Source: Bacteroides stercoris ATCC 43183 (GTDB taxonomy: Bacteria > Bacteroidota > Bacteroidia > Bacteroidales > Bacteroidaceae). From it: 64,000 nt of DNA. The stretch lies in contig NZ_CP102262.1 in the NCBI RefSeq assembly GCF_025147325.1, positions 1,860,001 to 1,924,000 on the forward strand, in the 5' to 3' direction. Made by a program: the position numbers and the translations under genes. The notes under the pieces are model-generated. The model worked only from the letters and a program-made list of their open reading frames with translations. It searched no databases and was not told the DNA's origin. Of this stretch, positions 1 to 23,611 are shown piece by piece (position 1 is the stretch's first letter; each line of letters opens with the position of its first letter).

Positions 1-1
1 T

Positions 2-1258
2 TCTCGTCCCGGCAATTTTCCTGCCAATTTGCAAGGTATATGGCATAATAATGTAGATGGTCCGTGGCGTGTGGACTATCACAACAATATCAATCTGCAG
101 ATGAACTATTGGCCGGCATGTTCTACCAATCTGAGCGAATGCATGAAACCGCTCATAGATTTCATCCGTACTTTGGTAAAACCTGGTGAGAAGACTGCTC
201 AGGCATATTTTGGGGCTCGTGGCTGGACGGCTTCCATTTCTGGAAATATCTTTGGTTTTACTACACCGTTGGAGAGTGAGAATATGTCGTGGAATTTCAA
301 CCCTATGGCAGGACCATGGCTGGCAACACACATTTGGGAGTATTATGATTACACCAGAGATGTGAAGTTTCTCAAAGAAATCGGTTATGAACTGATTAAA
401 AGTAGTGCTAACTTTGCCGTAGATTACTTATGGCATAAACCCGACGGTACCTATACTGCGGCTCCTTCCACTTCTCCTGAACATGGTCCGGTAGACCAGG
501 GAGCAACCTTCGTACATGCAGTAGTCCGTGAAATTCTACTCGATGCTATCGATGCCAGCAAAGTGCTGCGGGTGGATGCTAAAGAACGCAAATACTGGGA
601 GCAGGTATTGGAGAAGTTGGTTCCTTATAAAATTGGGCGCTATGGTCAGCTGATGGAATGGTCCGGTGATATGGATGATCCGAAAGACCAGCATCGTCAT
701 GTGAACCATCTCTTTGGTTTGCATCCCGGGCATACGGTATCACCGATAACCACCCCTGAACTTTCCGATGCTTCCAGAGTGGTGTTGGAACACCGGGGTG
801 ATGGAGCAACCGGTTGGAGTATGGGTTGGAAACTTAATCAGTGGGCGCGTCTGCACGATGGTAATCATGCTTATAAACTTTTTGGTAATCTCTTAAAACA
901 CGGAACATTGAATAATCTTTGGGACATGCATCCGCCTTTCCAGATTGATGGGAATTTTGGTGGCACGGCCGGTGTTACGGAAATGCTGCTACAAAGTCAC
1001 ATGGGATTCATTCACTTGTTGCCAGCTTTGCCCGATGCTTGGAGTGACGGTTCTGTGTCCGGACTTTGTGCCCGTGGAAATTTTTCATTGGATGTATGCT
1101 GGAAAGATGGAAAGCTGCGACAGGTTGACATTATTTCTTATGCGGGAACACCTTGCATATTGAGATATCGGGACGCTGTGCTGATTTTCAAGACTCAAAA
1201 AGGGAAAAGCTATCGTGTAACCTATCAGAATGGATGTCTGATTTTGAATAAACGATAG
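2..1258 (+). CDS. GH95 alpha-L-fucosidase, C-terminal half (cut by window edge)
   Basis: The reading frame is open from the first bases, so the gene begins upstream of the window; about 418 residues remain of a family that is usually near 800. GH95 enzymes are inverting exo-fucosidases that mainly remove alpha-1,2-linked fucose from glycan ends. Seen: the signature beginning SRPGN and continuing to NINLQMNYWPA (the two Asn of NIN match the catalytic Asn pair of the family), PSTSPEH with the likely general-acid Glu, and QIDGNFGG near the end with the conserved Asp. The C-terminal beta-sandwich (LLPALPDAW) is intact and the stop is clean. It lies just before the SusC gene on the same strand and probably belongs to the same locus. 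Whether the missing N-terminus carries a signal peptide cannot be seen. Confidence 0.9.
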   Translation, partial: SRPGNFPANLQGIWHNNVDGPWRVDYHNNINLQMNYWPACSTNLSECMKPLIDFIRTLVKPGEKTAQAYFGARGWTASISGNIFGFTTPLESENMSWNFNPMAGPWLATHIWEYYDYTRDVKFLKEIGYELIKSSANFAVDYLWHKPDGTYTAAPSTSPEHGPVDQGATFVHAVVREILLDAIDASKVLRVDAKERKYWEQVLEKLVPYKIGRYGQLMEWSGDMDDPKDQHRHVNHLFGLHPGHTVSPITTPELSDASRVVLEHRGDGATGWSMGWKLNQWARLHDGNHAYKLFGNLLKHGTLNNLWDMHPPFQIDGNFGGTAGVTEMLLQSHMGFIHLLPALPDAWSDGSVSGLCARGNFSLDVCWKDGKLRQVDIISYAGTPCILRYRDAVLIFKTQKGKSYRVTYQNGCLILNKR

Positions 1259-1490
1259 ATTTCTTGTTCGTATAGTGAAGTTTATGAATTCTTTTCCTGG
1301 TTGGAAATGAATGTAATACCGATGAAATGGGCATAAATGCTTTATTTCAGAAGCTGGAGTCCTTAAAAATACTATCAATGAAAATATAGTGATTTTTAGA
1401 CCTATTAATAGTGATTTTTGTACTTCGGTTTTTGGATTGTTTTGCAATTTTGCAGCGTTGAAACGACAATATTTATTTAAATTTAATTCT

Positions 1491-4400
1491 ATGAGACAAA
1501 GACTTCAAAAGGCGATGCTTGTGATGGTGCTATGTCTGTTGGCTGTAACCACAGCTCTCGCTCAGGCCATTCAAGTGAAAGGTATTGTGTACGATGGTAA
1601 TGGTGAAACGATGCCTGGTGTAAACGTACATGTAAAAGGTGCTGCCAGTGGTACCATAACTGATGTAAATGGTAATTATACTGTTTCTGTTCCAAATTCC
1701 AATTCTATATTGGTATTCTCTTTTATTGGATATACAACGCAGGAAATAAAAGTAGGTAATCGTACCAATATTAATGTAACATTGAAAGACGACTTGCAGC
1801 AATTGGATGAAGTTGTCGTTGTGGCTTACGGTACGGCTCGCAAGGGTGACTTGACCGGTGCTTTGACTACCATGCGTCCGGATGGCAATGAGGCTATGAA
1901 AGCGACATCTATAGACAATCTGCTTGATGGTAAAGTTGCCGGTCTGGTAGTAAATACAGCATCTGCTACTCCGGGCGCTGCTTCCTCTATTACGATTCGT
2001 GGCGCCAGTTCTTTGCGTGGCGATAACCAACCTTTATATGTGATTGATAATATCCCGCAGGCTTCTACCGGTGAATTTGCTTCTTCTGGTATTTCAGGTG
2101 ACTTTCAGATTGCACAAGACCCCTTGGCTTCGCTGAATCCGGCCGATATTGAAGATATTACCATATTGAAGGATGCTTCTTCTACCGCCATCTATGGTAG
2201 CCGTGGTGCTAATGGTGTCATTTTGATTACTACAAAGAAAGGTAAGGAAGGTAAGGCAAAAGTAAGTGCTTCGGCTAACTTCACCATTGCAGAGCCTTCT
2301 GAACTGTTGAATATGATGAGTTTGCGTGAACATGCCTTGTATCGTAATTCGCGTCAGACGGATGAGAAAAACTGGCAGTTCCACCTGGTTGGTGACGAAG
2401 TACGTTATGTATTCGGTGATGCTACAGGTTCTTATGATCCTGATAAACCTGAATCCTATCATGTGCTGGCTGAACGAAACTGGCAGAAAGAAATTTATCA
2501 AACCGCTTTTTCTCAGAACTATTCCGTATCTGTAAATGGTGGTACAGGTAAGACTACCTACTACGTCTCTGCTAATTTCAAGGATATTGAGGGAACCGTG
2601 AAGCAGACAGGACTGAAGCAAGGTGACTTGCGTGCCAACTTGAATGCCGACTTGTCCAAGGCTGTTTCTCTACGTTTGTCCTTGGCTGGTTCTCTCCGTC
2701 AGAACGATATGATGGCCGGTGGTAATACATTGGGTGGTTCTACAGGTGCCGTTTCACGTACGGCTTTGGACTATGCTCCATATGAAATGCCGGAGGACGA
2801 CCCTGCTTTCGACCAAGAAGCTAAAACAACGGTATTCAGTTGGTTAAATGATTATGTAGACTTGGCTGATGATAAAACTTTCAATGCCAGTTTGGACCTG
2901 ACATGGAAAATCAGCAAGTTTTTGCGTTATAATCTCCGTACCGGTGGTAACATCAATACCAATGAACGTAAACGCTGGTATGGTCTGGAGCTGTATCAGG
3001 GTATGAATAATCAAGGTTACTTGGCCATTTCCAATCTTGACAAGAGCAATTACTCGGTAGAGAATCTGGTAATGTATAATACGAAGCTGGGTTCTTGGGG
3101 TAATTTGGATGGTACAGTCGGTATGACTTACGAGGATTACAATTTCTTGAACAAAAATGTTGTCGGAACCAAGTTTTCTGTAATGGAAATGCGCGAAAAT
3201 GGTATGCACATGGCCGGTTCTCGTGAATATCAGACACCTATTCAGAAAGATTATCAGTTGCTTTCTTACTTGGGACGCGTGAATATCAATCTTTTTGAGA
3301 AATATTTGATAACAGCCTCTATTCGTGCCGATGGTTCCAGCAAGTTTGCCAAGAATAATCGTTGGGGGTATTTTCCCTCTGCTTCTATCGCCTGGCGTTT
3401 GGAACAGGAAGAATTCATGAAGAGTTTGAAATGGCTGAGCCAATTGAAGCTTCGTTTGAGCTATGGTATCACTGGTAACCAGAGTATCGATCCGTATTCT
3501 ACTTTTGCCATGTATGGTGGCGGTAGTATTATCTATGCCGACAAACTGGGCAATGCATTGAATACGCTTACTATTACTAACTTGGCAAACAATAGCTTAA
3601 AATGGGAAAAGACAGCTTCCTGGAACGTGGGAGTAGACTTCGGCTTTTGGAATTCCCGTTTGACAGGTACTATAGATGTTTATAATAAGAAAACTACAGA
3701 CTTGCTTATCAGTCGGGATCTTCCGGGTTCGGCAGGTTTCTCTACAACCTATTATAACCAAGGATCATTGACAAACAAAGGTGTGGAATTCTCACTGAAT
3801 GCCTGCATCATTGACCATAAAGACTGGAAATGGAATGTAAGCGGAAATATTGGTGTCAACAAGGGAAAAATCGGTGATTTGGGTATGTTGCCTGGACAAT
3901 TTGGTGCATTGGGTGAAAGAGTCGGTTACTTTGGTAATTCTTTGGGTGACCACTTCGGTGTAGGCCATGTGTTCCTGGCAGGTGAAGCTCCGGGACAGTT
4001 CTACGGTTATGTGACTGACGGTATCGTACAGGTTGACGATGTGGTAGAAGGTAAGGGCATCCGTTATACTAAGGCTGATGGAACGGAAGGTTACTATAAG
4101 ACTGCCATGGGGCAGACATTGAAAGCCGGTGACGTGAAGTTTGTCGACAGAAACGAAGACGGTGTGGTAGATGATAAGGATAAGGATATTATCGGTAATC
4201 CCAATCCGGACTTTACTTATGGTATCCAGACCAGCCTTTCCTGGAAGTCGCTGACGCTGAAAGCTGCTTTCAACGGCGTACAAGGTCGTGATATATTGAA
4301 CACCGGTAACCGTTACATAAACACACCGGGTATGAAGTCCAACAACATCACTTCTGAAGCTTATCAGGGAATGTGGACTGCCGAAAACCCCAGCAATCTC

Positions 4401-4703
4401 TTCCCCTCGGCCAACTTTGAGGTACAGAACATGGTGATGGATCGTTATGTAGAGGATGGAAGTTATTTTCGGTGTTCAGACATTACATTGAGCTATGTTT
4501 TGCCCAAGAGCCTGATTTCCAAAATCGGAATGAAAAACATGTCAGTATTCGCCAGTGTGAAGAATGCCTTCATCCTTACCGACTACAGCGGTTATGACCC
4601 TGAAGTGAACAGTTTTGCCTTCGACGGACTTCGTCCGGGCGTGGATATGAACTCTTATCCTACACCGCGTTCCTACATCTTCGGTTTGAACCTTACTTTT
4701 TAA
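1491..4703 (+). CDS. SusC-like TonB-dependent outer-membrane transporter
   Basis: A 1070-residue outer-membrane importer that, with its SusD partner, takes oligosaccharides into the periplasm using TonB energy. The start chosen is ATG followed by RQRLQKAM because it opens a normal signal peptide (cleavage near TTALAQ); an upstream in-frame extension has no signal character. Order of domains: signal peptide about 1-24, carboxypeptidase-regulatory-like beta-sandwich about 28-108, the SusC marker DEVVVVAYG, plug domain about 115-235 (DNLLDGKVAG, LYVIDNIP, ILKDASSTAIYGSRGANGVI), then a 22-strand barrel ending in the aromatic residue of LNLTF. There is no STN domain, so signalling to a FecR anti-sigma factor is not expected. 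The SusD gene follows after 35 bp. The cargo is inferred from the neighbouring enzymes to be a fucosylated, sulfated host glycan. Confidence 0.95.
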   Translation: MRQRLQKAMLVMVLCLLAVTTALAQAIQVKGIVYDGNGETMPGVNVHVKGAASGTITDVNGNYTVSVPNSNSILVFSFIGYTTQEIKVGNRTNINVTLKDDLQQLDEVVVVAYGTARKGDLTGALTTMRPDGNEAMKATSIDNLLDGKVAGLVVNTASATPGAASSITIRGASSLRGDNQPLYVIDNIPQASTGEFASSGISGDFQIAQDPLASLNPADIEDITILKDASSTAIYGSRGANGVILITTKKGKEGKAKVSASANFTIAEPSELLNMMSLREHALYRNSRQTDEKNWQFHLVGDEVRYVFGDATGSYDPDKPESYHVLAERNWQKEIYQTAFSQNYSVSVNGGTGKTTYYVSANFKDIEGTVKQTGLKQGDLRANLNADLSKAVSLRLSLAGSLRQNDMMAGGNTLGGSTGAVSRTALDYAPYEMPEDDPAFDQEAKTTVFSWLNDYVDLADDKTFNASLDLTWKISKFLRYNLRTGGNINTNERKRWYGLELYQGMNNQGYLAISNLDKSNYSVENLVMYNTKLGSWGNLDGTVGMTYEDYNFLNKNVVGTKFSVMEMRENGMHMAGSREYQTPIQKDYQLLSYLGRVNINLFEKYLITASIRADGSSKFAKNNRWGYFPSASIAWRLEQEEFMKSLKWLSQLKLRLSYGITGNQSIDPYSTFAMYGGGSIIYADKLGNALNTLTITNLANNSLKWEKTASWNVGVDFGFWNSRLTGTIDVYNKKTTDLLISRDLPGSAGFSTTYYNQGSLTNKGVEFSLNACIIDHKDWKWNVSGNIGVNKGKIGDLGMLPGQFGALGERVGYFGNSLGDHFGVGHVFLAGEAPGQFYGYVTDGIVQVDDVVEGKGIRYTKADGTEGYYKTAMGQTLKAGDVKFVDRNEDGVVDDKDKDIIGNPNPDFTYGIQTSLSWKSLTLKAAFNGVQGRDILNTGNRYINTPGMKSNNITSEAYQGMWTAENPSNLFPSANFEVQNMVMDRYVEDGSYFRCSDITLSYVLPKSLISKIGMKNMSVFASVKNAFILTDYSGYDPEVNSFAFDGLRPGVDMNSYPTPRSYIFGLNLTF

Positions 4704-4738: not shown

Positions 4739-6634
4739 ATGAAGAATTTTAAATATATTGCTTTTTCTTTCCTGCTTACCGGCAGTGCTGTTTTGACCGG
4801 TTGTTTGGATGAAGAGCCCCTTTATTCCCAAAATAATTTGGTGATTTTCAGCAGTGAGTCCAATGCCAGGCAAGCTCTCTTGGGATGCTACGGCTATATG
4901 GCTGCTCCCAACGGATATGGTCAGCAATGGCAGGAATTGCCTATCAGCGCTTCTGGCTTTGCTTGGACAAACCGTAATTCCGGTGAAGACCCTAATGTCA
5001 GTTTAAATGTATTGACTTCCAGTACACAAGTGGAGTATGCTTGGAACGGTATGTATAAAGTAATCGCTGAAGTCAATGCTTTCCTTGACTATTTGAACAA
5101 GAGTGAACTCTCGGATGATATCAAAAACAAGCTGGGGGCAGAAGCACGTTTCTTGCGTGGTGTTGCCTATTACAACTTGGTTTCCCATTTTGGTGACGTT
5201 CCCATGAGAACTTCAGCCTCTTCTTCCGATGGAATCGCTATGCCCCGTACGCCGAAAGAACAGGTGTTCGGATTGATTATCGATGATTTCAAGTCAGCTT
5301 TGGTGTTACCGGAAACACAAAATGATGGCTATGCCACAAGTCTGGCAGCCAAGGCTTATTTGGGCAAAGTGTATCATAAAATGGCTTGCTTGGACATTGA
5401 TAAACAAACGAATCTGAACAATGCCAAAGCCATGTTTGATGAAGTGTACGGAAAATATCAACTTCAACCGAAATTTGGCGACTTGTTTGTAGACAATGTA
5501 AATGGAAGTAAAGAATCAATCTTCCAATTGAACTATAACGCAGAGTCCACTTTGGTATTCAATCGTGCTTGTAACCGTTTTGCTCCGGCTCACTCAAACA
5601 GTGGTATCGCATGGGGGACGTACAAGGCAACCAAAGCGCTTTACGACTGGATGCGTGCTACCTATCCCGGTGATCCCCGTTTGGAAATAAATTTCCTTAC
5701 TAGCTGGCGCCAGCATAAGAATAATCAGGCTGATGATGTACCGCAAAAGGGCGACCAACCGTGTGCCAACGACTCTACTTACTCTTATCCGTACATCACA
5801 TATAAGGTGAAAGGTGTCTATGTGATGAAAGACGGAAAACCAGTAATGGAAAACGGCATACCGCTACAGCAAGATTTTGTAGCAGAACTTCCTTATGCAG
5901 ACATGGAAGACCCTTCGAATCCTTCTATAGCAAAATTTGCTGACTATACCAAGATGGCGGAGGCAATGAATCCTGATAAAAAGGTTCCTTTGACAGGTCA
6001 GGCTCTAAAAGACTCCACACGTTTGGCCCGTATTGGAGAAAGTGTACAAACAGATTATGCAGCTTCTGGCAAAGAACACGCTTCTCCCTATTTCGGAAAA
6101 ATGTTCGATAAGAAAGCTACGGGTACACGCAGTCATAAAAATCTGATTGTATACCGTTATGCCGAAATGTTGCTTTTGATGGCCGATGTATATAATGAAT
6201 TGGGGCAGAAAGACCGTGCTATTGATTTAGCTAATGAGGTACTGACACGTGCCCGACAATCATCTGCAGGGACTTCTGCTCAGCCGGCTGACTGGCCGAA
6301 GACTTTGACGCAGGATGAAGTGAGAGAGCATCTGTATTACGAACGGATCTTTGAATTTGCAGGTGAGCCCAATATGTATGAAATGGTACGGTTGAAAGGT
6401 GTGGAACTCTTTAAAAAAGCCTTGGAAAAACACAATAATCATGAGATAACGAGAGCCTCGGTAGAAACGTATCAGGAAACAAAAAATAATAAGCAGGATC
6501 GTCTTTATAACGAAGCGGAAGGTGGAGCATTAACTCAGGACTTCTTGAAGAAGAATCTGCTATTGCCGATACCTTTGTCAGAAATCAATTATAACGAAGG
6601 TATTACGGTAGATGACAACAACTTTGGTTATTAA
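4739..6634 (+). CDS. SusD/RagB-family surface glycan-binding lipoprotein
   Basis: A 631-residue surface lipoprotein that caps the SusC barrel and captures glycan. The signal peptide ends in the lipobox LTGC (Cys22) and is followed by the acidic stretch LDEE, which fits the export signal that sends Bacteroides lipoproteins to the cell surface. The N-terminal SusD tetratricopeptide part includes LGAEARFLRGVAYYNLV, and the C-terminal RagB part includes RYAEMLLLMADVYNELG and the closing LLPIPLSEINYN, all typical of the family. Length is slightly above the usual 500-600. It is co-transcribed with susC, and a strong hairpin with T-run follows 40 bp after the stop. The ligand is not determinable from sequence. 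Confidence 0.95.
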   Translation: MKNFKYIAFSFLLTGSAVLTGCLDEEPLYSQNNLVIFSSESNARQALLGCYGYMAAPNGYGQQWQELPISASGFAWTNRNSGEDPNVSLNVLTSSTQVEYAWNGMYKVIAEVNAFLDYLNKSELSDDIKNKLGAEARFLRGVAYYNLVSHFGDVPMRTSASSSDGIAMPRTPKEQVFGLIIDDFKSALVLPETQNDGYATSLAAKAYLGKVYHKMACLDIDKQTNLNNAKAMFDEVYGKYQLQPKFGDLFVDNVNGSKESIFQLNYNAESTLVFNRACNRFAPAHSNSGIAWGTYKATKALYDWMRATYPGDPRLEINFLTSWRQHKNNQADDVPQKGDQPCANDSTYSYPYITYKVKGVYVMKDGKPVMENGIPLQQDFVAELPYADMEDPSNPSIAKFADYTKMAEAMNPDKKVPLTGQALKDSTRLARIGESVQTDYAASGKEHASPYFGKMFDKKATGTRSHKNLIVYRYAEMLLLMADVYNELGQKDRAIDLANEVLTRARQSSAGTSAQPADWPKTLTQDEVREHLYYERIFEFAGEPNMYEMVRLKGVELFKKALEKHNNHEITRASVETYQETKNNKQDRLYNEAEGGALTQDFLKKNLLLPIPLSEINYNEGITVDDNNFGY

Positions 6635-6887: not shown

Positions 6888-8465
6888 ATGAAAACAACAC
6901 ATGTACTTTTTTCAGTAGCAGGGGTGACTATTGTATCTTCCTCACTTTTTTCTTGCCAGCAAAAGCAGGAACAGAAATATAAGCCGTATAATATTGTGTA
7001 CATCATGACCGATGACCATACGGCACAGATGATGAGTTGCTATGATCGTCGTTATGTTCATACTCCCAATTTAGACCGTATTGCGTCTGATGGAGTGCGA
7101 TTTGCCAATAGTTTTGTGGCCAATTCGCTTAGCGGGCCTAGTCGTGCCTGCATGCTCACAGGTAAACACAGTTGCGGTAATAAGTTTTACGACAATAGTA
7201 CTTGCGTATTTGATGGTACTCAGCAGACTTTCCCGAAAATTTTGCGTGAAAACGGTTATCAGACAGCAATTATCGGGAAGTGGCACTTGGAAAGTCTTCC
7301 TACTGGATTCGATTATTGGGAAATTGTTCCCGGTCAGGGTAATTACTACAATCCGGATTTTATTAACATGAACAACGACACTATCCGGAAGAAAGGATAT
7401 ATAACGAATCTTATCACAGATATGAGTATTGACTGGATGGAAAACTCACGGGACAAGAAGAAGCCGTTCTGTCTGCTCATTCACCACAAAGCCATCCACC
7501 GGAATTGGTTACCGGAAATCAAAAATCTTTCACTTTACGAAGATAAAGTCTTTCCATTGCCGGAAAATTTCCATGATGATTACGAAGGACGTATTGCCGC
7601 TGCTTCTCAGGAAATGGGCATTGCTGAAGATATGGATCTTATATATGATTTGAAAATGCTGAAAGACGGTCAGGAGTCGCGTTTGAAAAAGACATATGAA
7701 TGTATGCTGAACCGTATGGACTCGCTTGAGCGCAAGCAGTTTGAAGATTTTTACGCACCTATTACTGAAGAGTTCTATAAGCTCAACTTGAAAGGCAAGG
7801 AACTGGCGGAATGGAAATATCAGCGGTATATGAGAGACTATATGAAGGTGGTTAAGTCATTGGATGACAATGTCGGAAGAATTCTGGATTATTTGGAAGA
7901 CAAAGGTATGCTGGAAAATACATTGGTGGTTTATACCTCTGATCAGGGATTCTACATGGGTGAGCACGGATGGTTTGACAAACGTTTCATGTATGAGGAG
8001 TCTATGCACACACCATTGCTTATGCATCTGCCCAAAGGGTTGAATGCAAAAGGAGAAATCCGTGAGATGGTACAGAACATCGACTATGCTCCTACCTTTC
8101 TGGAACTTGCTGGCATTCCAGTACCCGAGGATATGCACGGAGTATCATTGCTGCCGCTATTGAGAGGTGAGCATCCGGTGGATTGGCGCAAGGCTTTGTA
8201 CTATCATTTTTATGAATATCCGGCAGAGCATATGGTTAAACGTCATTACGGAGTACGGACAGACCGTTTCAAACTTATTCATTTTTACAATGATATTGAC
8301 ACTTGGGAGCTGTATGACCTGAAGGAGGATCCTACAGAAATGCATAATTTATACGGAAACAGCGACTATGCGTCAATTGTAGATAGTTTGAAAGAAACCA
8401 TGCTGGAGCTGCAAGAGCAGTATAACGATCCGGTGCGGTTCTCGCCGGAACGTGATAGAGACTGA
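6888..8465 (+). CDS. S1-family sulfatase lipoprotein, probably GlcNAc-6-O-sulfatase (S1_11-like)
   Basis: A 525-residue sulfatase that should remove sulfate esters from sugars in the periplasm or at the outer membrane. The lipobox is LFSC (Cys23). Metal ligands are in MTDDH (Asp42, Asp43). The formylglycine motif is SGPSR at residues 82-86, a serine-type site that needs an anaerobic radical-SAM maturase encoded elsewhere. Further family marks are IGKWHLES and YTSDQGFYMGEHGWFDKR. From memory the DDHTAQMMSCYD and GPSRACMLTGKH blocks closely resemble gut N-acetylglucosamine-6-sulfatases, and the adjacent GH20 gene would act on the desulfated GlcNAc; this specificity is inference. It is the first gene of a three-gene operon and the next start follows after 23 bp. 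Confidence 0.92.
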   Translation: MKTTHVLFSVAGVTIVSSSLFSCQQKQEQKYKPYNIVYIMTDDHTAQMMSCYDRRYVHTPNLDRIASDGVRFANSFVANSLSGPSRACMLTGKHSCGNKFYDNSTCVFDGTQQTFPKILRENGYQTAIIGKWHLESLPTGFDYWEIVPGQGNYYNPDFINMNNDTIRKKGYITNLITDMSIDWMENSRDKKKPFCLLIHHKAIHRNWLPEIKNLSLYEDKVFPLPENFHDDYEGRIAAASQEMGIAEDMDLIYDLKMLKDGQESRLKKTYECMLNRMDSLERKQFEDFYAPITEEFYKLNLKGKELAEWKYQRYMRDYMKVVKSLDDNVGRILDYLEDKGMLENTLVVYTSDQGFYMGEHGWFDKRFMYEESMHTPLLMHLPKGLNAKGEIREMVQNIDYAPTFLELAGIPVPEDMHGVSLLPLLRGEHPVDWRKALYYHFYEYPAEHMVKRHYGVRTDRFKLIHFYNDIDTWELYDLKEDPTEMHNLYGNSDYASIVDSLKETMLELQEQYNDPVRFSPERDRD

Positions 8466-8488: not shown

Positions 8489-10810
8489 ATGAAAAAAAAT
8501 ATCTTCATTTTGACCTTCTTCTTTTTGTGTGTCTGCATTCTTTATGTCAGAGGTGAAGAGCGCAAGATGCAAAAATTAGAAATTGTACCTGCACCGGAGA
8601 ATTTTACGCTTGAAAAGGGTAATTTCATATTTAAAGCCAGTACGGTAATCACCGTAGAGGATACAGCTATGGTATCTGTAGCAGAACAGTTCGCCTCGCT
8701 GTTCAATGTTCCTGCAGGCTTTACTCCTCAAGTGAAAACAACAGCGAAAGCCGGTGACGTCTGCCTTCGTTTTGACAGTTCCTTAAAAAAAGAAGCTTAT
8801 CGCCTGGTCATCACTCCTAAGCGGATTAACGTGTATACATCGAGTAAAGAAGGGGCGTTCTATGCCTTTCAAAGCTTGCGCCAACTTCTGCCTTCAGAGC
8901 TGGAGGGAGGAGAGCGTGCAATGAATGTCGACTGGAGCGTACCGGCTGCTACCGTCGATGACAGTCCCCGTTTCGGGTACAGAGGCGTGATGATTGATGT
9001 AGCCCGATATTTTATTCCTAAAGAAGACCTTTTACGTCTGATAGATTGTATATCTTTGTTGAAGATAAATACATTGCACTTGCATCTTACTGATGATAAC
9101 GGTTGGCGCATTGAGATAAAAAAGCATCCTTTGCTTACGGCTGTAGGCTCCCGTCGTGTAGAACGGGAAGGCTTGCTTTTCCATGAGAGGCACAACCAAC
9201 GGCAAGGTGAGCCTACCGTGAAAAAAGGATTCTATACCCAGACGGACATACGCGAGATTGTGGCATATGCTTCCTCACGGTGCATTGAAATTATACCTGA
9301 AATAGATATGCCGGCACACAGCAATGCGGCTCTTGCAGCCTATCCGATGCTTGCTTGTCCTGTAGTGGATAAATTCATAGGTGTGTTGCCGGGACTCGGG
9401 GGGAATCATGCTGACATCATTTATTGTGCGGGGAATGAAAATGTTTATCATTTCCTGCAAGACGTTCTTGATGAGGTAATGGCGCTTTTTCCTTCCCGGT
9501 ATATTCATTTAGGGGGTGATGAGGCTTGGAAAACGCATTGGAAGCAATGCCCGCTTTGCCAGAAACGTATCAGAGAGGAAAAACTGGCGGATGAGGAAGA
9601 TTTGCAAGGCTATTTTATGCGACGTATGAGCAAGTATGTACAAAGCAAGGGGCGTGAAGTGATGGGATGGGACGAACTGACCCAATCGCAGATACCTGAT
9701 GATGCTATTATATTCGGCTGGAGAGGTATGGGTGAAGCTGCGCTAAAAGCAGCCGGGCAAGGGCATCGCTTTGTAATGACTCCTGCTCGTGTCATGTATC
9801 TTATCCGTTATCAAGGTCCCCAATGGTTTGAGCCATATACCTATTTTGGAAATAATACATTGAAAGATATTTATAGTTATGAACCTGTGGAACCGACTTG
9901 GAGTGATGGGATAAAGTCGCTGTTGATGGGTGTGCAAGGTTCTATGTGGACAGAGTTCTGCAACCGGACCAGTGATGTGGAATATATGTTGTTCCCTCGG
10001 TTGGCGGCTGTGGCTGAAGTAGGGTGGACTATACCAGGAAAGAAAGACTGGAGCCGCTTTCTGAAAGCATTGGATCATTTTACGGAACGATTGGCCGTCA
10101 AAGGAGTGAATTTCGCCCAATCAATGTATAATATTCAGCACTCTGTAACGGTTCGCGATGGCAAGTTACAAGTCACCCTGGATTGTATTCGTCCCGATGT
10201 GGAGATAGCCTATACCTTGGACGGGAGTGAACCAACGGTCAACTCTCCGCGCTATGTAAAACCTCTGATTGTAAAACAGAGCACTTTGCTGAAATGTGCA
10301 ACTTTTTACAATGGAAAGTGCATGGGGAAAACGCTGACGTTGCCGGTTGGTTTGAATAAGGCGACAGCTTGTACAGTATATACGGACTCTCCGGCAAAGG
10401 ATGTGCTGGTTAACGGAGTCAGAGGGAGCAGTCGCAGTTCTGACTTTGAATGGGCGTCATGGGAAAATAACGATACAATCTGCATCACCCTTGACTTAGG
10501 CAAGAAAACCTGTATGCAGAAACTCATAATGGGATTCAACAACAGTTACGGCATGGGCATCCACAAACCACGCAGGATAGAGGTCTGGGTATCGCCGGAT
10601 GATCGTCAATACCGGAAAATAAAAGAACAGTCCTTTGCAGAGACGGAAATATTCAGACAGGGTATGTTTACAGAGGATGTACAGTTTGATTTAAAAGATG
10701 AGTCTCGCTATGTGCGTATTGTTGCCTATGGAGCTGGTATGAATCCGCCAACGCATGTTCGTCCGGAGCAAGAAACGAAAGTGTGCATAGATGAGCTAAT
10801 TATTGAATAG
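8489..10810 (+). CDS. GH20 beta-N-acetylhexosaminidase with C-terminal accessory domains
   Basis: A 773-residue exported enzyme that releases terminal beta-GlcNAc or GalNAc by substrate-assisted catalysis. After a hydrophobic signal segment (about 1-22) come the GH20 N-terminal alpha/beta domain (about 30-145) and the catalytic barrel (about 148-500). The barrel contains RYFIPKEDLLRLID, HLHLTDDNGWR, IPEIDMPAH and the catalytic Asp344-Glu345 pair in HLGGDEAW. A chitobiase/FN3-like domain follows (YTLDGSEPTVNSPRY), then a discoidin-like F5/8C domain (about 640-773) that probably binds galacto-configured sugars. Cysteines lie within the signal core but do not form a clear lipobox, so processing by signal peptidase I is more likely. 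It is tightly coupled to the sulfatase before it and the GH29-GH16 gene after it. Confidence 0.94.
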   Translation: MKKNIFILTFFFLCVCILYVRGEERKMQKLEIVPAPENFTLEKGNFIFKASTVITVEDTAMVSVAEQFASLFNVPAGFTPQVKTTAKAGDVCLRFDSSLKKEAYRLVITPKRINVYTSSKEGAFYAFQSLRQLLPSELEGGERAMNVDWSVPAATVDDSPRFGYRGVMIDVARYFIPKEDLLRLIDCISLLKINTLHLHLTDDNGWRIEIKKHPLLTAVGSRRVEREGLLFHERHNQRQGEPTVKKGFYTQTDIREIVAYASSRCIEIIPEIDMPAHSNAALAAYPMLACPVVDKFIGVLPGLGGNHADIIYCAGNENVYHFLQDVLDEVMALFPSRYIHLGGDEAWKTHWKQCPLCQKRIREEKLADEEDLQGYFMRRMSKYVQSKGREVMGWDELTQSQIPDDAIIFGWRGMGEAALKAAGQGHRFVMTPARVMYLIRYQGPQWFEPYTYFGNNTLKDIYSYEPVEPTWSDGIKSLLMGVQGSMWTEFCNRTSDVEYMLFPRLAAVAEVGWTIPGKKDWSRFLKALDHFTERLAVKGVNFAQSMYNIQHSVTVRDGKLQVTLDCIRPDVEIAYTLDGSEPTVNSPRYVKPLIVKQSTLLKCATFYNGKCMGKTLTLPVGLNKATACTVYTDSPAKDVLVNGVRGSSRSSDFEWASWENNDTICITLDLGKKTCMQKLIMGFNNSYGMGIHKPRRIEVWVSPDDRQYRKIKEQSFAETEIFRQGMFTEDVQFDLKDESRYVRIVAYGAGMNPPTHVRPEQETKVCIDELIIE

Positions 10811-10823
10811 AAAAAGAATGACC

Positions 10824-13601
10824 ATGAAAAAGACATTTTTTTCAGTTTTGATGTTGTTGGGCTGTTATACACAGTCCAATGCACAGGAATATTACGAAAA
10901 GCATTTGGAATTTCCACCACAAGCTACGGTGGAGGAGAAAATAGACATGGCATCCCGGTTAGTACCCACACCACAGCAACTGGAGTGGCAGCAGATGGAA
11001 CTAACGGCTTTTTTACATTTTGGTATCAATACTTTTACAGGACGTGAATGGGGAGATGGCAAGGAGGATCCTGCGCTTTTCAATCCCACCGGACTGGACT
11101 GCGAGCAATGGGTGCGTGCCTTGAAAGAAGGAGGTTTCAAGATGGCTGTCATTACTGCCAAGCATCATGATGGCTTTTGTCTATGGCCTACCAAGACTAC
11201 CCGGCATTCTGTTGTCTCGTCACCCTGGAAGAATGGCAAGGGAGATGTGGTGCGCGAATTACGCAATGCCTGCAAGAAATATGGCTTGAAGTTCGGTATA
11301 TATCTTTCACCCTGGGATCGCAATGCCGAATGTTACGGACAAGGCGATGCTTATAACCGGTTCTTCATCGAGCAGCTTACGGAGTTGCTTACCAACTATG
11401 GAGAGGTGCATGAAGTGTGGTTCGACGGAGCCAATGGGGAAGGGCCTAATGGCAAAAAGCAAATTTATGATTGGGAGGCTATTGAGCGTACAATCCGGCG
11501 TTTACAGCCCAAAGCGGTTACTGCTGTCATGGGCGATGACGTTCGTTGGGTAGGCAACGAGAAGGGCATCGGACGTAAGACAGAATGGAGCGCTACGGTA
11601 TTGACTCCTGGTATTTATTCCCGTGCCATAGGACAAAATAAGGAGCTGGGCGTATTTGGCAAGTCAAAAGATTTGGGAAGCCGGGACATTGTGGCGCGCG
11701 CAAAAGAGCTTTTTTGGTTTCCTTCGGAGGTGGATGTATCTATCCGTCCGGGCTGGTTTTACCATTCCAAGGAGGATAGTCATGTAAAATCGCTTGCGCA
11801 TCTGGCAGATATCTACTTCAAGTCGGTAGGATATAATTCGGTGTTATTGCTCAATATTCCACCCGATAAGTCGGGACTTATCCATGAAAATGATTGCCGC
11901 AGGCTAAAAGAGTTCTCTACTTACCTCAAAAATACTTTTGAAAAAGATTATCTGAAGAGGGGGAGAACACGGTGGGAAGCCCTATCAGGTACATCGAAAG
12001 AATACATGGTACGGAAGGATGCTCTTGTAAACACATTTATGATTCAGGAGGATATAACCAAAGGCCAACGTGTGGAAAGTTTTTTATTGGAAGGCTATTG
12101 GGATGGGAATTGGCGGACACTCGCCGAAGGTACTACTGTGGGCTACAAGCGTTTGGTGCGTTTTACAGAGTGCCAACCGGAGAAAATTCGTCTGACGATA
12201 CGCTCTGCGCGTAACGCAGCCCACATTTTGCGTACGGGACTTTTTTATGCCCGTCCGCTGACAGACAATAGCGCTAAAGTGCAGTTGGGCAATGTGCCGG
12301 TAAGCCAATGGCGTCTTTCCGGTACGGATGAGACTATGCGGAAGGCTTTTGATAAAAATGTACAGACAGTATGGCGTACGGAAGGGCTCAAAACATTCAC
12401 TGTAGATTTGGGGCGCGATGCCGAAATCACCGGATTTAGCTATACCCCTGCGCAGGACGATAATCTGGCAGGAACTATCTATAAGTACCGTTTTGAAGTC
12501 AGTATGGATGGCTCGCATTGGAAAACATGTGCCACATCCGGGGAGTTCAGTAACATTATGCATAACCCTGTGACTTGTTTCGTACACTTTGAACAAAGTT
12601 ATAGAGGACGTTTCTTTCGTCTGGTTCCTCTTGCTGAAATAAGTGGGAAACCATGCACATCGATTGCTGAAATAGGAATATTCGCTGTTGCTTTACCTGC
12701 TAAAGATGATGAATCTGCAGTCTATCCCGTTCCCGGTGCACCGCTTACTTTAAAAGTTGGGGATGCCCATCCGTCGGTGGATGGATGGAGTTTTTTCACT
12801 GCACATGAATTTCTGGAGCGGGATACCCGTAATGGACTGCCGTTGGGATTCATCGAACATCGAGGCAAGCATATGAGTCGTGATGCTCGGGTAGATAACA
12901 GCCGTTGTTCGGAAGTGAAGAATGGTGTATTGCAGATTCGTAGCATAGAAGAAGCCGATTCGGTGGATAACCGTTTCGGTAAGCGTGTGAAATTCTCACA
13001 TGGATGTTATCGGACTGCTCTGCCCGGAAGTAGTGAGGAGTGGTGTAATTTTACAGAAAATATGCGCATTGAGGTGCGATTCAAACGTAATGCCTATGAG
13101 GGGTTCAACGATGCGTTGTGGTTTATGGGCAATAATAATCTTCCTTGGCCTGCCAATGGTGAGATAGATCTTTTGGAGAACCCTAAAAGGAAATTGAACA
13201 ACCGTGCTCATTTCACCCTGCACTCGGAAAATCATTATGCCGGTGTCATTGGGGGGGCAGGAAGTGTTACCTCGTCTATTGAAATCAGAGATATGTCAAA
13301 ATGGAATATCTATTGGTTGGAATGGTATCCCGACCGTATAGTAGGTGGGGTAAATGGAGCTACTTATTTTGAGCACAAACGAGGGGAAAATGGTAATACC
13401 GATTGGCCGTGGAGTGATCCTAAAGGTTTCTTTATGATTTTTAGTACCGGTATCTCAACCAATCCCAAAGCATGGGCCGGAGCTGTGAAACCTGAACTGT
13501 GGGACAACAGCGCCATGCCTTGTATGTACATAGATTGGATACGTGTTTATGTCAATAAACAATATAAAGGAGCGGCAGCTCCTGCCGTGAAATACTATTA
13601 G
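10824..13601 (+). CDS. Fusion enzyme: GH29 alpha-L-fucosidase, F5/8C module and GH16 endo-glycosidase
   Basis: A 925-residue two-enzyme protein. The chosen ATG precedes KKTFFSVLM, 13 bp after the GH20 stop; an ATG two codons earlier is also possible. The signal region ends in SNAQ (an LLGC at Cys14 could be a short lipobox). GH29 barrel, about residues 30-370: FLHFGINTFTGREWGDG, TAKHHDGFCLWPTKTT, and VWFDGANG with the predicted nucleophile Asp201. A beta-sandwich and an F5/8C (CBM32-like) domain span about 480-630. The final third is a GH16 jelly-roll with NGEIDLLEN, where Glu780, Asp782 and Glu785 form the ExDxxE catalytic motif, plus IYWLEWYPDRI. GH29 removes alpha-1,3/4 fucose; GH16 enzymes of gut Bacteroides include endo-beta-galactosidases that cut mucin O-glycans. 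Combining both in one chain is unusual. The exact GH16 specificity is inference. Confidence 0.93.
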   Translation: MKKTFFSVLMLLGCYTQSNAQEYYEKHLEFPPQATVEEKIDMASRLVPTPQQLEWQQMELTAFLHFGINTFTGREWGDGKEDPALFNPTGLDCEQWVRALKEGGFKMAVITAKHHDGFCLWPTKTTRHSVVSSPWKNGKGDVVRELRNACKKYGLKFGIYLSPWDRNAECYGQGDAYNRFFIEQLTELLTNYGEVHEVWFDGANGEGPNGKKQIYDWEAIERTIRRLQPKAVTAVMGDDVRWVGNEKGIGRKTEWSATVLTPGIYSRAIGQNKELGVFGKSKDLGSRDIVARAKELFWFPSEVDVSIRPGWFYHSKEDSHVKSLAHLADIYFKSVGYNSVLLLNIPPDKSGLIHENDCRRLKEFSTYLKNTFEKDYLKRGRTRWEALSGTSKEYMVRKDALVNTFMIQEDITKGQRVESFLLEGYWDGNWRTLAEGTTVGYKRLVRFTECQPEKIRLTIRSARNAAHILRTGLFYARPLTDNSAKVQLGNVPVSQWRLSGTDETMRKAFDKNVQTVWRTEGLKTFTVDLGRDAEITGFSYTPAQDDNLAGTIYKYRFEVSMDGSHWKTCATSGEFSNIMHNPVTCFVHFEQSYRGRFFRLVPLAEISGKPCTSIAEIGIFAVALPAKDDESAVYPVPGAPLTLKVGDAHPSVDGWSFFTAHEFLERDTRNGLPLGFIEHRGKHMSRDARVDNSRCSEVKNGVLQIRSIEEADSVDNRFGKRVKFSHGCYRTALPGSSEEWCNFTENMRIEVRFKRNAYEGFNDALWFMGNNNLPWPANGEIDLLENPKRKLNNRAHFTLHSENHYAGVIGGAGSVTSSIEIRDMSKWNIYWLEWYPDRIVGGVNGATYFEHKRGENGNTDWPWSDPKGFFMIFSTGISTNPKAWAGAVKPELWDNSAMPCMYIDWIRVYVNKQYKGAAAPAVKYY

Positions 13602-13815: not shown

Positions 13816-14166
13816 ATGAAACCCGCACAACTCCTTCGTGCCATCCTTCCGGATGTGCTTATAGACAACTTTGATATTGTCAATTTCGACAAGAGTGCTG
13901 ACCGTTTTGATATTTATCTTGATGAAAAAAAAGTTCAACTAAAAGAAGATAAGATCAATCCGGATATCATATCCTATGGTTTTGGTGAGTATCGTACAAT
14001 CCAAGACTATCCTATTCGTGGTCGCGCCACTTATCTCCATGTTCGTAAACGTAAATGGCTTGACAAATCTTCCAATGAAATCTTCAGTTATGACTGGGAT
14101 TTATCCGAATTTGACGGTACACGGCTCAATTCTGAGTTCGTCTCTTTTTTAAAAGAAGGAGATTGA
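13816..14166 (+). CDS. Transposase N-terminal protein of the ISL3-like element
   Basis: A 116-residue protein beginning MKPAQLLRAILPDVL. It corresponds in position to the DNA-binding N-terminus of ISL3 transposases and has a basic stretch LHVRKRKWL where those proteins have their zinc ribbon. No cysteines are present, so a zinc ribbon is not retained. Its stop lies 10 bp before the start of the second frame, which is offset by +1. In the second frame a TAA sits just upstream, so simple -1 slippage cannot join the two; separate translation is the likely mode. Function is inferred from context and resemblance. Confidence 0.82.
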   Translation: MKPAQLLRAILPDVLIDNFDIVNFDKSADRFDIYLDEKKVQLKEDKINPDIISYGFGEYRTIQDYPIRGRATYLHVRKRKWLDKSSNEIFSYDWDLSEFDGTRLNSEFVSFLKEGD

Positions 14167-14176
14167 ATCTACTCCT

Positions 14177-15181
14177 GTGAGCATCAGTGTGCTTGCGGAA
14201 CGTTATGGCGTAAAAGGGCAGACTCTTCGTAAACAATACAAGGAGAAAATCAGTGATTACCGGAACTGGGATCAGCTCGAACATGCGCATGACTATCTCC
14301 TTTATCCTGAAAATATTGGAGAAAAGCTTTCTTTGGATGAAACTTGCCTGAGCAATGGAGATGTTTATACGATTCTGACCAATAAAGCAGCTAAAGGTCG
14401 TAAGGGTGCTTTAGTTGCAATAGTTCGTGGAGTGGCCACAGATGCGGTAAGCGGAATCTTGCGCAGGCTTCCGCACCGGAAACGGCTGTCTGTCAAGACT
14501 GTCACTACAGATTTATCTTCAGCCATGATGCTGACAGTCAGAAAGGTGTTTCCTGCCGCAAAGCTGATCAATGACCGTTTTCATGTACAGCAGCTCATGT
14601 CTGAAGCTGTTGACCAGTTAAGAATACGCTATCGGTGGAAAGTACTTGATGCGGAAAATCAGGCTATCAGGGAGCATCGCCAAAAGAAGAAAGAAACAAA
14701 GAGTAAGGCGGAAAGGGAAAGAATAGGGAAATGGGAACCTGAAAGAATGGAGAACGGAGAAACCCTGTCACAGATAGTAAGCAGAAGCAAGCACATTATA
14801 CTGAAACACTGGAGCAAATGGAATGAACAGCAAAAGACCAGGGCTGCCATTCTCTTTGATAAATTCCCCAAGCTTCTGGAAGGATACAGCCTTAGCATGA
14901 AACTGACAGACATCTTCAACAAGAAGTCAGGTCTCGATGAAGCAAGGCTAAATCTCGCAAGATGGTACAATGAAGTGGAAAAGTTTGACTATATGGAGTT
15001 CAACAAGGTACTTGATACGTTTTCAAACCATAGTACGACCATCATAAATTATTTTGAAGAACGATTGACAAATGCTTCAGCGGAGTCGTTCAATGCTAAA
15101 ATCAAAGCTTTTCGAAGCCAGTTAAGAGGGGTGGCTGATCTGAAATTCTTCATGTTCAGACTGGCTAGGCTATACGCTTAA
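14177..15181 (+). CDS. ISL3-family DDE transposase, catalytic protein
   Basis: A 334-residue recombinase domain starting at GTG. Residues 3-25 form a helix-turn-helix (ISVLAERYGVKGQTLRKQY). The DDE_Tnp_ISL3 core follows with Asp54 in LSLDET, Asp112 in TTDLSSAM, the family motif NDRFHVQ, a charged coiled segment around 165-190, and Glu303 in ASAESFNAKIKAFR. All three acidic catalytic residues are therefore present. The C-terminus LARLYA runs into the right inverted repeat. It lacks the usual N-terminal ~100 residues, which are supplied by the preceding frame. The GTG start is chosen because no ATG precedes the helix-turn-helix in this frame. Confidence 0.9.
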   Translation: MSISVLAERYGVKGQTLRKQYKEKISDYRNWDQLEHAHDYLLYPENIGEKLSLDETCLSNGDVYTILTNKAAKGRKGALVAIVRGVATDAVSGILRRLPHRKRLSVKTVTTDLSSAMMLTVRKVFPAAKLINDRFHVQQLMSEAVDQLRIRYRWKVLDAENQAIREHRQKKKETKSKAERERIGKWEPERMENGETLSQIVSRSKHIILKHWSKWNEQQKTRAAILFDKFPKLLEGYSLSMKLTDIFNKKSGLDEARLNLARWYNEVEKFDYMEFNKVLDTFSNHSTTIINYFEERLTNASAESFNAKIKAFRSQLRGVADLKFFMFRLARLYA

Positions 15182-19262: not shown

Positions 19263-21065
19263 ATGAAAAAGAGTTTATTTTTATTGTTTGCTGCCACATT
19301 TATACTGTGCAGTTGTGCTCATCAGAGCCTTGATGAAATACGTGCAGAACAGACTGCCCTCAATGCCCGACTTTCTGCCCTTGAGGAGTGGCAGAAGACA
19401 GCTAACGTGCAAATCGAGAGTATGCAAAGTCTTATTGCTGCTCTTGCTGATAACGATTACGTTACAGGTGTAAGTGAATTACCAGATGGTTCAGGTTATA
19501 TGATTGCTTTTCTGAAAAATGAAACTGTAATAATAAAGAACGGAAGGCAAGGCGAAAAAGGTAATGACGGCGCTCCAGGTATTGTTCCCAATATAGGCGT
19601 GAAAGAGAACGGCGGCGTTTATTACTGGACTTTGGACGGTTCCTATATATTGGACAACGATGGTAGCCCTCTGCGTGTTACAGGCGAACGGGGCGAGACC
19701 GGTATGAAAGGTGACGATGCTGTTGCTCCGAAAGTCCGCATCAATGCAGTTAGCAAAGAATGGGAAATCTCTATCGACAAAGGTGCTTCTTGGACATCTA
19801 CAGGGGTAAAAGCTATAGGTAAAGACGGCGTTGACGGCACAGACGGGATAAATGGGGCTTCCAGCTCTATTACAGTAGACGATAGCGGCAATTCTGTTAT
19901 TATTACTATAACCAATACGGATGCAGCAGGAATGGTAACTTGCACTGAACTGATAGAACTTCCCCTTTATAGGGCTTTTTACATTGGTGACGACCAGGCA
20001 GGGCAGGCTAATTCCGCCTTAATCATAACTGCCTTTACTACCGAAATTCCTTTCACGTTTCCAGCAGGTTTCAGGGAAAGCGACTGTACTGCTATCATGG
20101 TTCAAGTCGTCAGTGACAAGGGTGTCGGCACCGATATCCGGACACGAGCCGTTGCAACGCCTTGGAGTGCAACAATAACGAAACCTGTTGCTTCACAGGG
20201 AGTTTATACATCTGTTATTACCGTTCATGCTCCTGCGGGCATTGATATTGGCGACAAAGCCATGCTTGAGGTAACCATAGTGGGGACAGACGGAAGAATA
20301 ACATGTGTTGCTCGTGCACTGATTTCCAATATCACAGCGACTGTGGGCGATTATTATTACAGTGACGGCACTTTTTCCACAACTCTTGACAATACGAAAA
20401 CTCCGATAGGTGTCATTTTCCATACAGGTAATGTAGCGGAGAATGATAGTAAATTGAAAGGGAAAATAAGCGATACTTCCAAAACCATTATAATGGGGGA
20501 TGAAGTAAATAGTATTAAAAAGTCTGCACATGGTTTGGTAGTTGCCTTGAAGGATGCAAGCGCTGGCATCAGTTGGCAATCCGTTTATCGGCAAACCGGT
20601 ATAGGTGTCTCCGAAACAAGCCATATATGTGGTTATAGCAATACACAGGCAATGAAGGCATGGAATGATGATGCGAGTAATAGTGGCAGTTTATTAAAAG
20701 CTTATATGGAAATTGCTGCATACACTTCTGACAATCCGACTCCACAGAGCAGTAGCGGTTGGTATTTTCCTTCTGTACGTGAACTCTCCACACTCTGTTC
20801 GGGCTGGGTAGAAAGTGGCTGGTCGGAAAATGGAAACTATGGCGGTATAAATGTTTCCGGAAGTAATGTCAACGTTGTCAATGAGAAGTTAGAGGCTTTG
20901 TCTGACTTCGAAGCTCAAAAAGTTGGTGAAGCTCTTTATTGGTCTTCTTCAGAAGTTCCGGATAATGGCGACAATGCATTTTTTGTAAATATGTACCTTG
21001 GCTACGTGTCGAATGGAGTTAAAGGCAATATGCTTGACCGGGTACGGGCTGTTTTGGCTTTTTAA
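19263..21065 (+). CDS. Surface lipoprotein with DUF4988-like N-terminus, collagen-like segments and a C-terminal lectin-like domain
   Basis: A 600-residue lipoprotein of unknown function; the lipobox is LCSC (Cys18). Residues about 20-95 form a coiled coil followed by a small domain (LNARLSALEEWQKTANV, YVTGVSELPDGSGY) like the DUF4988 region of Bacteroides surface proteins. Three Gly-X-Y stretches follow: GRQGEKGNDGAPG, GERGETGMKGDDA and GKDGVDGTDGINGA, separated by short beta-rich segments. A middle beta-sandwich spans about 235-370. The last 220 residues, with GWYFPSVRELSTLC, YWSSSE and the ending VRAVLAF, resemble the DUF1566/C-type-lectin-like domains of Bacteroidetes. A binding or adhesin role is inference. 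The structured leader upstream suggests regulated expression. Confidence 0.75.
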   Translation: MKKSLFLLFAATFILCSCAHQSLDEIRAEQTALNARLSALEEWQKTANVQIESMQSLIAALADNDYVTGVSELPDGSGYMIAFLKNETVIIKNGRQGEKGNDGAPGIVPNIGVKENGGVYYWTLDGSYILDNDGSPLRVTGERGETGMKGDDAVAPKVRINAVSKEWEISIDKGASWTSTGVKAIGKDGVDGTDGINGASSSITVDDSGNSVIITITNTDAAGMVTCTELIELPLYRAFYIGDDQAGQANSALIITAFTTEIPFTFPAGFRESDCTAIMVQVVSDKGVGTDIRTRAVATPWSATITKPVASQGVYTSVITVHAPAGIDIGDKAMLEVTIVGTDGRITCVARALISNITATVGDYYYSDGTFSTTLDNTKTPIGVIFHTGNVAENDSKLKGKISDTSKTIIMGDEVNSIKKSAHGLVVALKDASAGISWQSVYRQTGIGVSETSHICGYSNTQAMKAWNDDASNSGSLLKAYMEIAAYTSDNPTPQSSSGWYFPSVRELSTLCSGWVESGWSENGNYGGINVSGSNVNVVNEKLEALSDFEAQKVGEALYWSSSEVPDNGDNAFFVNMYLGYVSNGVKGNMLDRVRAVLAF

Positions 21066-23493: not shown

Positions 23494-23611
23494 TATAAGC
23501 CTATCTTTCACGCATTTCTTAACCAATATTGGCGAGAAATAGAATAAAAAACTTTATTTTTGCCGAATATATTCAGTTTAAGAAAAAGCACCGATGAAAG
23601 ATAGGCTTATA
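23494..23611. repeat. 15-bp perfect inverted repeat spanning the fsa / LtaS-like junction
   Basis: TATAAGCCTATCTTT (23494-23508) is exactly complementary to AAAGATAGGCTTATA (23597-23611). The right arm begins at codon 2 of the next gene, and the gene's -7 box lies between the arms. Confidence 0.8.
23555..23562 (+). promoter_or_regulatory. -7 box (TATTTTTG) for the LtaS-like gene
   Basis: TAnnTTTG match 31 bp before the ATG. Confidence 0.55.

Follow-up and report, generated by a model that had tools for sequence, protein, structure and literature searches.

Does a gut Bacteroides couple the removal of capping fucose to the cutting of the glycan chain as a fixed strategy, or is the cutting enzyme free to join other partners? 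This question is raised by a gene of Bacteroides stercoris ATCC 43183 (10824..13601) located in a 64,000-nucleotide stretch of DNA that was analysed as a whole and is called the window here. From its letters alone, the gene had been read as a complete GH29 fucosidase joined by an F5/8C module to a complete GH16 endo-glycanase. All features of the window described below are encoded on the forward strand.

Domain structure of the fused protein

A domain scan confirmed that GH29 and GH16 reside on one polypeptide of 925 amino acids with F5/8C between them, and a second copy of the fusion was found in the same genome. The protein starts with a signal peptide (residues 1-20, 10824..10883, ending SNA/QE), judged by eye to be of type I. 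The GH29 catalytic domain, counted together with the beta-sandwich at its C-terminus (residues ~45-480, 10956..12263) and delimited by profile and structure matches, is followed by the F5/8 type C (CBM32-like) module (residues 504-617, 12333..12674; domain scan) and by an apparently portable unit of linker and GH16 module (residues ~625-925, 12696..13598), whose boundaries were derived from comparing fusions. No NCBIfam family matched the fused protein at E <= 0.001.

The GH29 Pfam domain scored 138 bits against a cut-off of 25.2. Among solved structures, the GH29-F5/8C half best matched the Bacteroides GH29-F5/8C protein 4ZRX along residues 21-620 (E 3e-251). The 586-residue chain of 4ZRX, presumably from B. 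ovatus, ends where the match ends and, unlike the fused protein, has no GH16. The second-best match was the alpha-1,3/4-fucosidase 3MO4/3UES (E 1e-125 for 3UES), which we take to be BiAfcB; its GH29 active site lines up with that of the fused protein, but its chains of 478-480 residues leave no room for F5/8C and GH16. In an ungapped alignment block, Asp201 (codon 11424-11426) and Glu246 (codon 11559-11561) correspond to residues 172 and 217 of 3UES, presumably the nucleophile and the acid/base of BiAfcB, and both were invariant in 44 aligned full-length homologues. Family membership suggests that the domain is a Lewis-type alpha-1,3/4-fucosidase (subfamily B).

Profile and fold comparison both assigned the C-terminal domain to the GH16 beta-jelly-roll, the glucanase/O-glycanase fold. 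A laminin-G or other non-catalytic fold, which the sequence-only reading had named as a possible pitfall, was ruled out in this way. The catalytic motif E780-I-D782-L-L-E785 (13161..13178) conforms to ExDxxE, which was found in 89 of 89 homologue rows. In 14 diverse rows E150, D152, E155, W136 and H166 (module numbering) were invariant, and W145 nearly so. With Asp201 and Glu246 aligned to 3UES and ExDxxE intact throughout, both domains look catalytically complete, as had been claimed. The fusion is real and, judged from sequence, catalysis is plausible at both GH29 and GH16.

The best sequence match of the GH16 module was SCLam, a non-specific endo-beta-1,3(4)-glucanase, and laminarinases and O-glycanases tied in fold score; identity to the best solved relatives was only ~20-25%. 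The expected membership in subfamily GH16_3 is uncertain. Its pattern WPA...WXX...WPX is described as 'largely conserved', not universal, by Viborg et al. (PMC6827312). In the alignment of the fused protein two of the three motifs (WFM and WPA) were present, and the first WPA was replaced by N-D-A. Since the fold does not separate glucanases from O-glycanases and one GH16_3 motif is gone, the module was filed as GH16 without subfamily, its placement in GH16_3 being uncertain. To our knowledge, none of the proteins in this GH16 clade has a described activity. Compared by published numbering rather than direct alignment, W775 and W766 lie 5 and 14 residues before E780, and W138 and W131 of BACCAC_02680, aromatic platforms of its -1/-2 subsites, lie five and twelve residues before E143 (PMC7419316). 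The O-glycanases of Crouch et al. (BT2824, BF4060, BACCAC_02680, BACCAC_03717, Amuc_0724) are ~20-24% identical to the module, and the legend of their domain figure names no second catalytic domain, unlike the fused protein, which further differs in its probably periplasmic location, the loss of the first WPA motif and an activity that is putative (PMC7419316).

Occurrence of the fusion

Searching residues 630-925 against ~5.8 billion proteins yielded 89 rows, in which the partner domain was GH29 in 71, sulfatase in 8 and GH20 in 1. Five of the other 9 rows start within GH29 (P0001, P0003, P0005, P0010, P0011). The remaining four were P0074, an F5/8C-GH16 protein without GH29, the distant BACON protein P0089, and P0063 and P0069, in which GH92 and phosphoglycerate mutase, respectively, are joined to the module; the latter two look like assembly chimeras and were rejected as true fusions. 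P0088 has an aberrant C-terminus. The cluster P0002, which shares 99% identity with the window protein, represents 2062 member sequences, whose carriers look like common gut Bacteroides. With two copies in this genome and carriers across several groups of Bacteroidales, the GH29-GH16 fusion is not special to the window locus.

The GH29-F5/8C half had at least 7911 relatives at E <= 1e-100 among 7992 candidates scored. GH16 was present on 14 and missing in 106 of the best 120 of these relatives, and P0090 (82%), the nearest GH29 relative of the window protein among the matches listed, also lacks it; hence the coupling of GH29 to GH16 is not essential. As for the survey of GH29/GH16 co-occurrence called for by the sequence-only reading, the fusion is found in most module rows (71/89) and on few of the best GH29 relatives (14/120).

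In genome samples, own-clade modules were told apart by a score >420 bits, the next matches reaching <=326 bits. With this genome included in each sample, such modules were found in 2 of 301 family-sample genomes (this genome twice, G224 once), 1 of 393 order-sample genomes (this genome) and 9 of 119 genus-sample genomes. The frames of the genus sample were 933 and 929 aa in this genome, 810-813 aa in 4 genomes, 335 aa in 3 and a 234-aa partial frame in 1. These lengths fit GH29-fused, sulfatase-fused and stand-alone forms, an assignment made outside this genome by length alone. Among the matches listed in titles and abstract starts of open-licence PubMed Central, with CAZy/PULDB and subscription papers outside the scope, neither a GH29-GH16 nor a sulfatase-GH16 protein was described, and the exact fused names had no match in open-licence PubMed Central.

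Gene neighbourhood

The window opens inside a GH95 alpha-L-fucosidase gene, of which it covers the 3' end region (1..1258) and whose start lies before it; next come genes for a SusC-like TonB-dependent transporter (1389..4703), a SusD-like protein (4739..6634), an S1_11-type sulfatase (6888..8465) and, directly upstream of the fused gene, a GH20 beta-hexosaminidase with F5/8C (8489..10810). Just upstream of the window lie the rest of GH95, a GH2 (68%), another GH20 and a GH18 with laminin-G, whose match to the EndoS barrel was weaker. The closest solved structure of the window sulfatase was 7P24 (E 1e-277), listed in a review table as BT3177, an S1_11 enzyme for 6S-GlcNAc; the S1 active-site motif [CS]x[PA]xR.....G reads SGPSRACMLTG. 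The proposed use of host glycans fits these neighbours, namely the S1_11-type sulfatase closest to BT3177, GH20, GH95 and the upstream GH2.

Thirteen related loci were counted (the window, L003, L006-L014, L016 and L017), those cut short being scored as lacking a gene; L015, L018 and L019 (too short) and L020 (a distant relative) stand outside this count. S1_11-type, GH20 and GH2 genes were each present in 11 of the 13 loci, the GH2s sharing 33-100% identity with the L003 copy, and an S1_16-type gene directly follows GH29 in 4 (L003, L008, L010, L013). The order S1_11-type sulfatase, GH20, GH2, GH29-F5/8C(-GH16) was found in 8 loci (L003, L007-L013). GH2 is missing between GH20 and GH29 in the window and in L014. 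In L017 an additional sulfatase separates GH20 from GH2, L006 starts only with its GH2, and in L016, where no GH20 is in view, a GH2 with 33% identity lies behind the fused gene.

Exchange of partner domains

In the paralogous locus of the same genome (L003), the gene after GH29-F5/8C-GH16 encodes an S1_16-type sulfatase ending PYPDGSIR. This sulfatase is closest to 7OZA (E 7.5e-176), given in a review table as BT3796, an S1_16 enzyme for 4S-Gal/4S-GalNAc. Assignment of the partner sulfatase to S1_15/S1_20, and with it a keratan sulfate locus, was dropped, 7OZA and 7OZ9 being S1_16 (4S-Gal/4S-GalNAc). In B. cellulosilyticus, B. oleiciplenus and B. timonensis (L008, L010, L013), GH29-F5/8C stops after ~625-632 codons and GH16 sits on the next gene, the S1_16-type sulfatase, which in L008 and L010 is 85% identical to the sulfatase of the paralogous locus. 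The S1_16 sulfatases BT3796/BT3057 (7OZA, 7OZ9) are kin of the GH16-bearing B. cellulosilyticus sulfatase. The 7OZA chain of 522 residues is matched nearly whole by the sulfatase and, unlike the B. cellulosilyticus protein, lacks GH16.

At the same place, B. stercorirosoris (L007) and an uncultured Bacteroides (L006) carry a 335-codon frame in which a sulfatase-like signal-peptide start, a sulfatase tail and a linker (SYPDGGQAEKKL in L007) precede a stand-alone GH16. This architecture suggests that the sulfatase domain was lost in frame; the stand-alone GH16 of B. stercorirosoris appears to have arisen by deletion. In P0048 the same cassette follows GH20-F5/8C with 70% identity and the motif kept; Pfam lists only GH20 and F5/8C for this protein. 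P0048 is represented by one listed contig, as is each sulfatase-fused row that falls outside the B. cellulosilyticus group (P0024, P0041, P0051, P0062). A stop-to-stop frame of 1565 aa in L009 was rejected as a triple fusion, its first ~620 codons overlapping a GH2 gene in another frame.

Closely related GH16 modules with different partners are ~73-75% identical. Several GH29-borne and sulfatase-borne copies have a linker of the form PKDDET(L/Q)VY in common, which marks the moving unit. The GH16 half looks like a portable cassette of ~300 residues that has moved among exo-enzymes of one kind of locus (GH29, S1_16-type sulfatase and GH20). Because GH16 is also found on a sulfatase (8/89), on GH20 (1/89) and alone, the coupling of fucose removal to cutting, which the sequence-only reading had considered plausible as a new strategy, is not a fixed one.

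Phylogenetic analysis

The module tree of 73 rows has mostly GH29-borne deep branches, and its well-supported (starred) branches require the sulfatase label to change at least 4 times. For this tree, near-identical rows were removed (103 to 73), P0063, P0069 and P0088 were left out, as was L009, in whose supplied stretch the motif did not turn up, and any P row without a sulfatase, GH20 or BACON label was counted as GH29, including P0003, P0009, P0074 and P0077 with a missing or cut GH29. At least 3 changes were forced in a 31-row tree, and a single clade of all sulfatase-fused and stand-alone rows was rejected (AU p 0.0032). Removal of P0024, P0032, P0041 and P0048 left 29 rows with at least 2 forced changes, and the single clade was again rejected (p 0.030). 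This 29-row result still leans on P0051 and P0062, one contig each, which group together. Given this thinning and labelling of rows, and given that the subsets were selected once the first tree had been built, the p values should be read as guides. The GH29 tree of 71 rows (53 fused, 18 plain) required at least 7 changes, 3 of them forced by starred branches; as its plain rows were drawn from the 120 top-ranking of at least 7911 relatives and from a few loci, this tree gives no order in time between the fused and the plain state.

Cellular location, substrate and proposed mechanism

The N-terminus reads by eye as a type I signal peptide, and in many homologues the signal ends A-x-A-Q or similar, so the fused protein is probably periplasmic and then unlikely to begin the breakdown of mucin, a role for which the sequence-only reading had cast its GH16. 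With a Cys at residue 14 (LLGC), the start may also be a lipoprotein signal. A far GH16 relative at the paralogous locus (C1:1008361) has a lipoprotein-like start followed by SEEK and keeps GEIDVMEN; this separate lipoprotein is thus the better candidate for the first cut at the surface. Such surface-type GH16 proteins with DUF5006/DUF5014 (C1:1008361 and L020) come from the same or a similar locus and keep the glutamates of the cassette, but they are separate proteins with a lipoprotein-like start and only 25-33% identity to it.

Because of the neighbouring genes, imported, sulfated, Lewis-type fucosylated LacNAc oligosaccharides are the most likely substrate. Nine gut GH16 enzymes are reported to be endo-beta-1,4-galactosidases on poly-LacNAc, with fucose and sulfate on their products (PMC7419316). 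According to the same report, blood-group sugars (fucose at -3', GalNAc/Gal at -4) are mostly tolerated and slow hydrolysis, so defucosylation could help cutting, although these enzymes accommodate fucose (PMC7419316). We favour, with moderate confidence, a periplasmic GH29-GH16 enzyme of two activities that acts on oligosaccharides imported by SusC/SusD and whose GH16 is a portable cassette. The SusC/SusD pair would import the oligosaccharides, GH29 would remove branch fucose from GlcNAc, and GH16 would then cleave the uncovered beta-linked backbone, most likely at galactose in the manner of mucin O-glycanases. S1_11-type sulfatase, GH20 and GH2 would finish the pieces. In such a pathway the two sites of the fused protein may cooperate.

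We give somewhat less than an even chance to the view that the fusions are a by-product of the neighbourhood, GH16 sliding by deletion or recombination onto the adjacent gene with no catalytic benefit beyond co-secretion. The main partners flank one junction (GH29-GH16 then sulfatase in L003, GH29 then sulfatase-GH16 in B. cellulosilyticus), the stand-alone GH16 of B. stercorirosoris keeps its sulfatase-like start and tail, a 335-aa frame occurs in 3 of 119 genus genomes, and 106 of the 120 best GH29 relatives do without GH16. However, an exo-acting partner (GH29, sulfatase, GH20) in 80 of 89 rows and partner changes recurring in separate lineages exceed what a neutral slide needs. Movement from enzyme to enzyme and a C-terminal place are typical of binding modules, too, but a non-catalytic GH16 serving for binding is very improbable in view of ExDxxE intact in every row, the near-complete invariance of active-site residues across the 14 diverse rows and the module kept as a stand-alone ORF.

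Other substrates have also to be weighed. SCLam as best sequence match and the structural tie of laminarinases with O-glycanases would suit a laminarinase-type beta-glucanase in a locus for mixed or plant/fungal glycan; this is improbable given the BT3177-like S1_11-type sulfatase, GH20, GH95 and Lewis-type GH29 nearby, for which we know of no role in beta-glucan use. GH16, GH29 and S1_11 all occur in porphyran/agar loci, and all three are present here. Nevertheless, a GH16 porphyranase accompanied by a GH29 alpha-L-galactosidase and an S1_11 L-Gal-6-sulfatase is hardly credible, as GH29 is far nearer to 3UES (1e-125) than to the exo-alpha-L-galactosidase 7lnp (1.7e-12), the sulfatase matches BT3177 (1e-277) far better than it does the L-galactose-6-sulfatase 7lha (6e-93), and GH20 is present. 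A sulfated, fucosylated N-glycan (e.g. with 4-sulfated LacdiNAc antennae) instead of mucin is rather unlikely, its short antennae giving no obvious need for an endo-acting GH16, but it would accommodate the GH18 with its weaker EndoS-barrel match, the GH2 and the other GH20 just upstream of the window, as well as a partner sulfatase closest to S1_16 enzymes removing 4S-Gal/4S-GalNAc. B. cellulosilyticus WH2 reportedly grows neither on mucin O-glycans nor on keratan sulfate (PMC3747994), which points the same way and counts against a mucin substrate, although this strain may lack the locus.

Implications

Multi-catalytic glycan-degrading enzymes are already known, and the most interesting aspect here is the GH16 half that changes partners. 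One endo-glycanase cassette attached to a fucosidase, to a sulfatase, once to a hexosaminidase, or standing alone in similar neighbourhoods provides a natural experiment in enzyme coupling, in which related GH16 modules with different partners are directly comparable. It is possible, if doubtful, that the module is a plug-in cutter of a new GH16 clade, one with a distinct bond specificity towards sulfated and fucosylated LacNAc chains, and that it was repeatedly attached to the exo-enzyme removing the cap that hinders its access (fucose, galactose sulfate or terminal HexNAc), so that the choice of partner would report the dominant cap met by each lineage. Annotation of such proteins by one domain, as fucosidase or sulfatase, misses the second enzyme. 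The finding marks a GH16 clade of candidate endo-glycanases in gut Bacteroides that look common.

Genomic context of the fused gene and its relatives

The genome of B. stercoris carries a second copy of the locus (L003, contig C1 1008000-1028000), which is fuller than that in the window. It comprises genes for a surface-type GH16 enzyme (DUF5006/DUF5014), a DUF4988 protein, an S1_11-type sulfatase, GH20, GH2, the GH29-F5/8C-GH16 fusion and an S1_16-type sulfatase. The DUF4988 protein (L003:1470-2852) adjoins the surface-type GH16, and another is encoded in the window (19263-21065); both are possibly surface glycan-binding proteins. Away from the locus, the window also encodes a protein of 633 aa whose C-terminal domain belongs to the sulfatase/phosphatase superfamily (23594-25495).

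In a locus of relatives, L017, the Pfam scan identified a hybrid two-component regulator directly 3' of the fused gene (L017:9597-13610). A candidate of equal frame length occupies the same position in another, L018 (2709-6722). The regulator likely controls the locus in which it lies. Immediately 3' of the fused gene in the window lies an ISL3-type insertion sequence (13816-15181) with a DDE transposase and a zinc-ribbon ORF, the zinc-ribbon match being weak.

Among the homologues, the entries P0001, P0003, P0005 and P0010-P0013 start within the GH29 domain; P0010 represents 243 sequences, the longest contig being 520 kb. Gene calling or frameshifts may account for these starts; alternatively, the GH29 portion may be broken in some strains.

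Just upstream of the window (L004, C1 1850980-1860000), GH2, GH20, GH18 and GH95 genes precede the SusC/SusD pair. The GH18 protein also contains DUF6562 and laminin-G domains, its match to the EndoS barrel being weaker. This gene set hints at N-glycan use.
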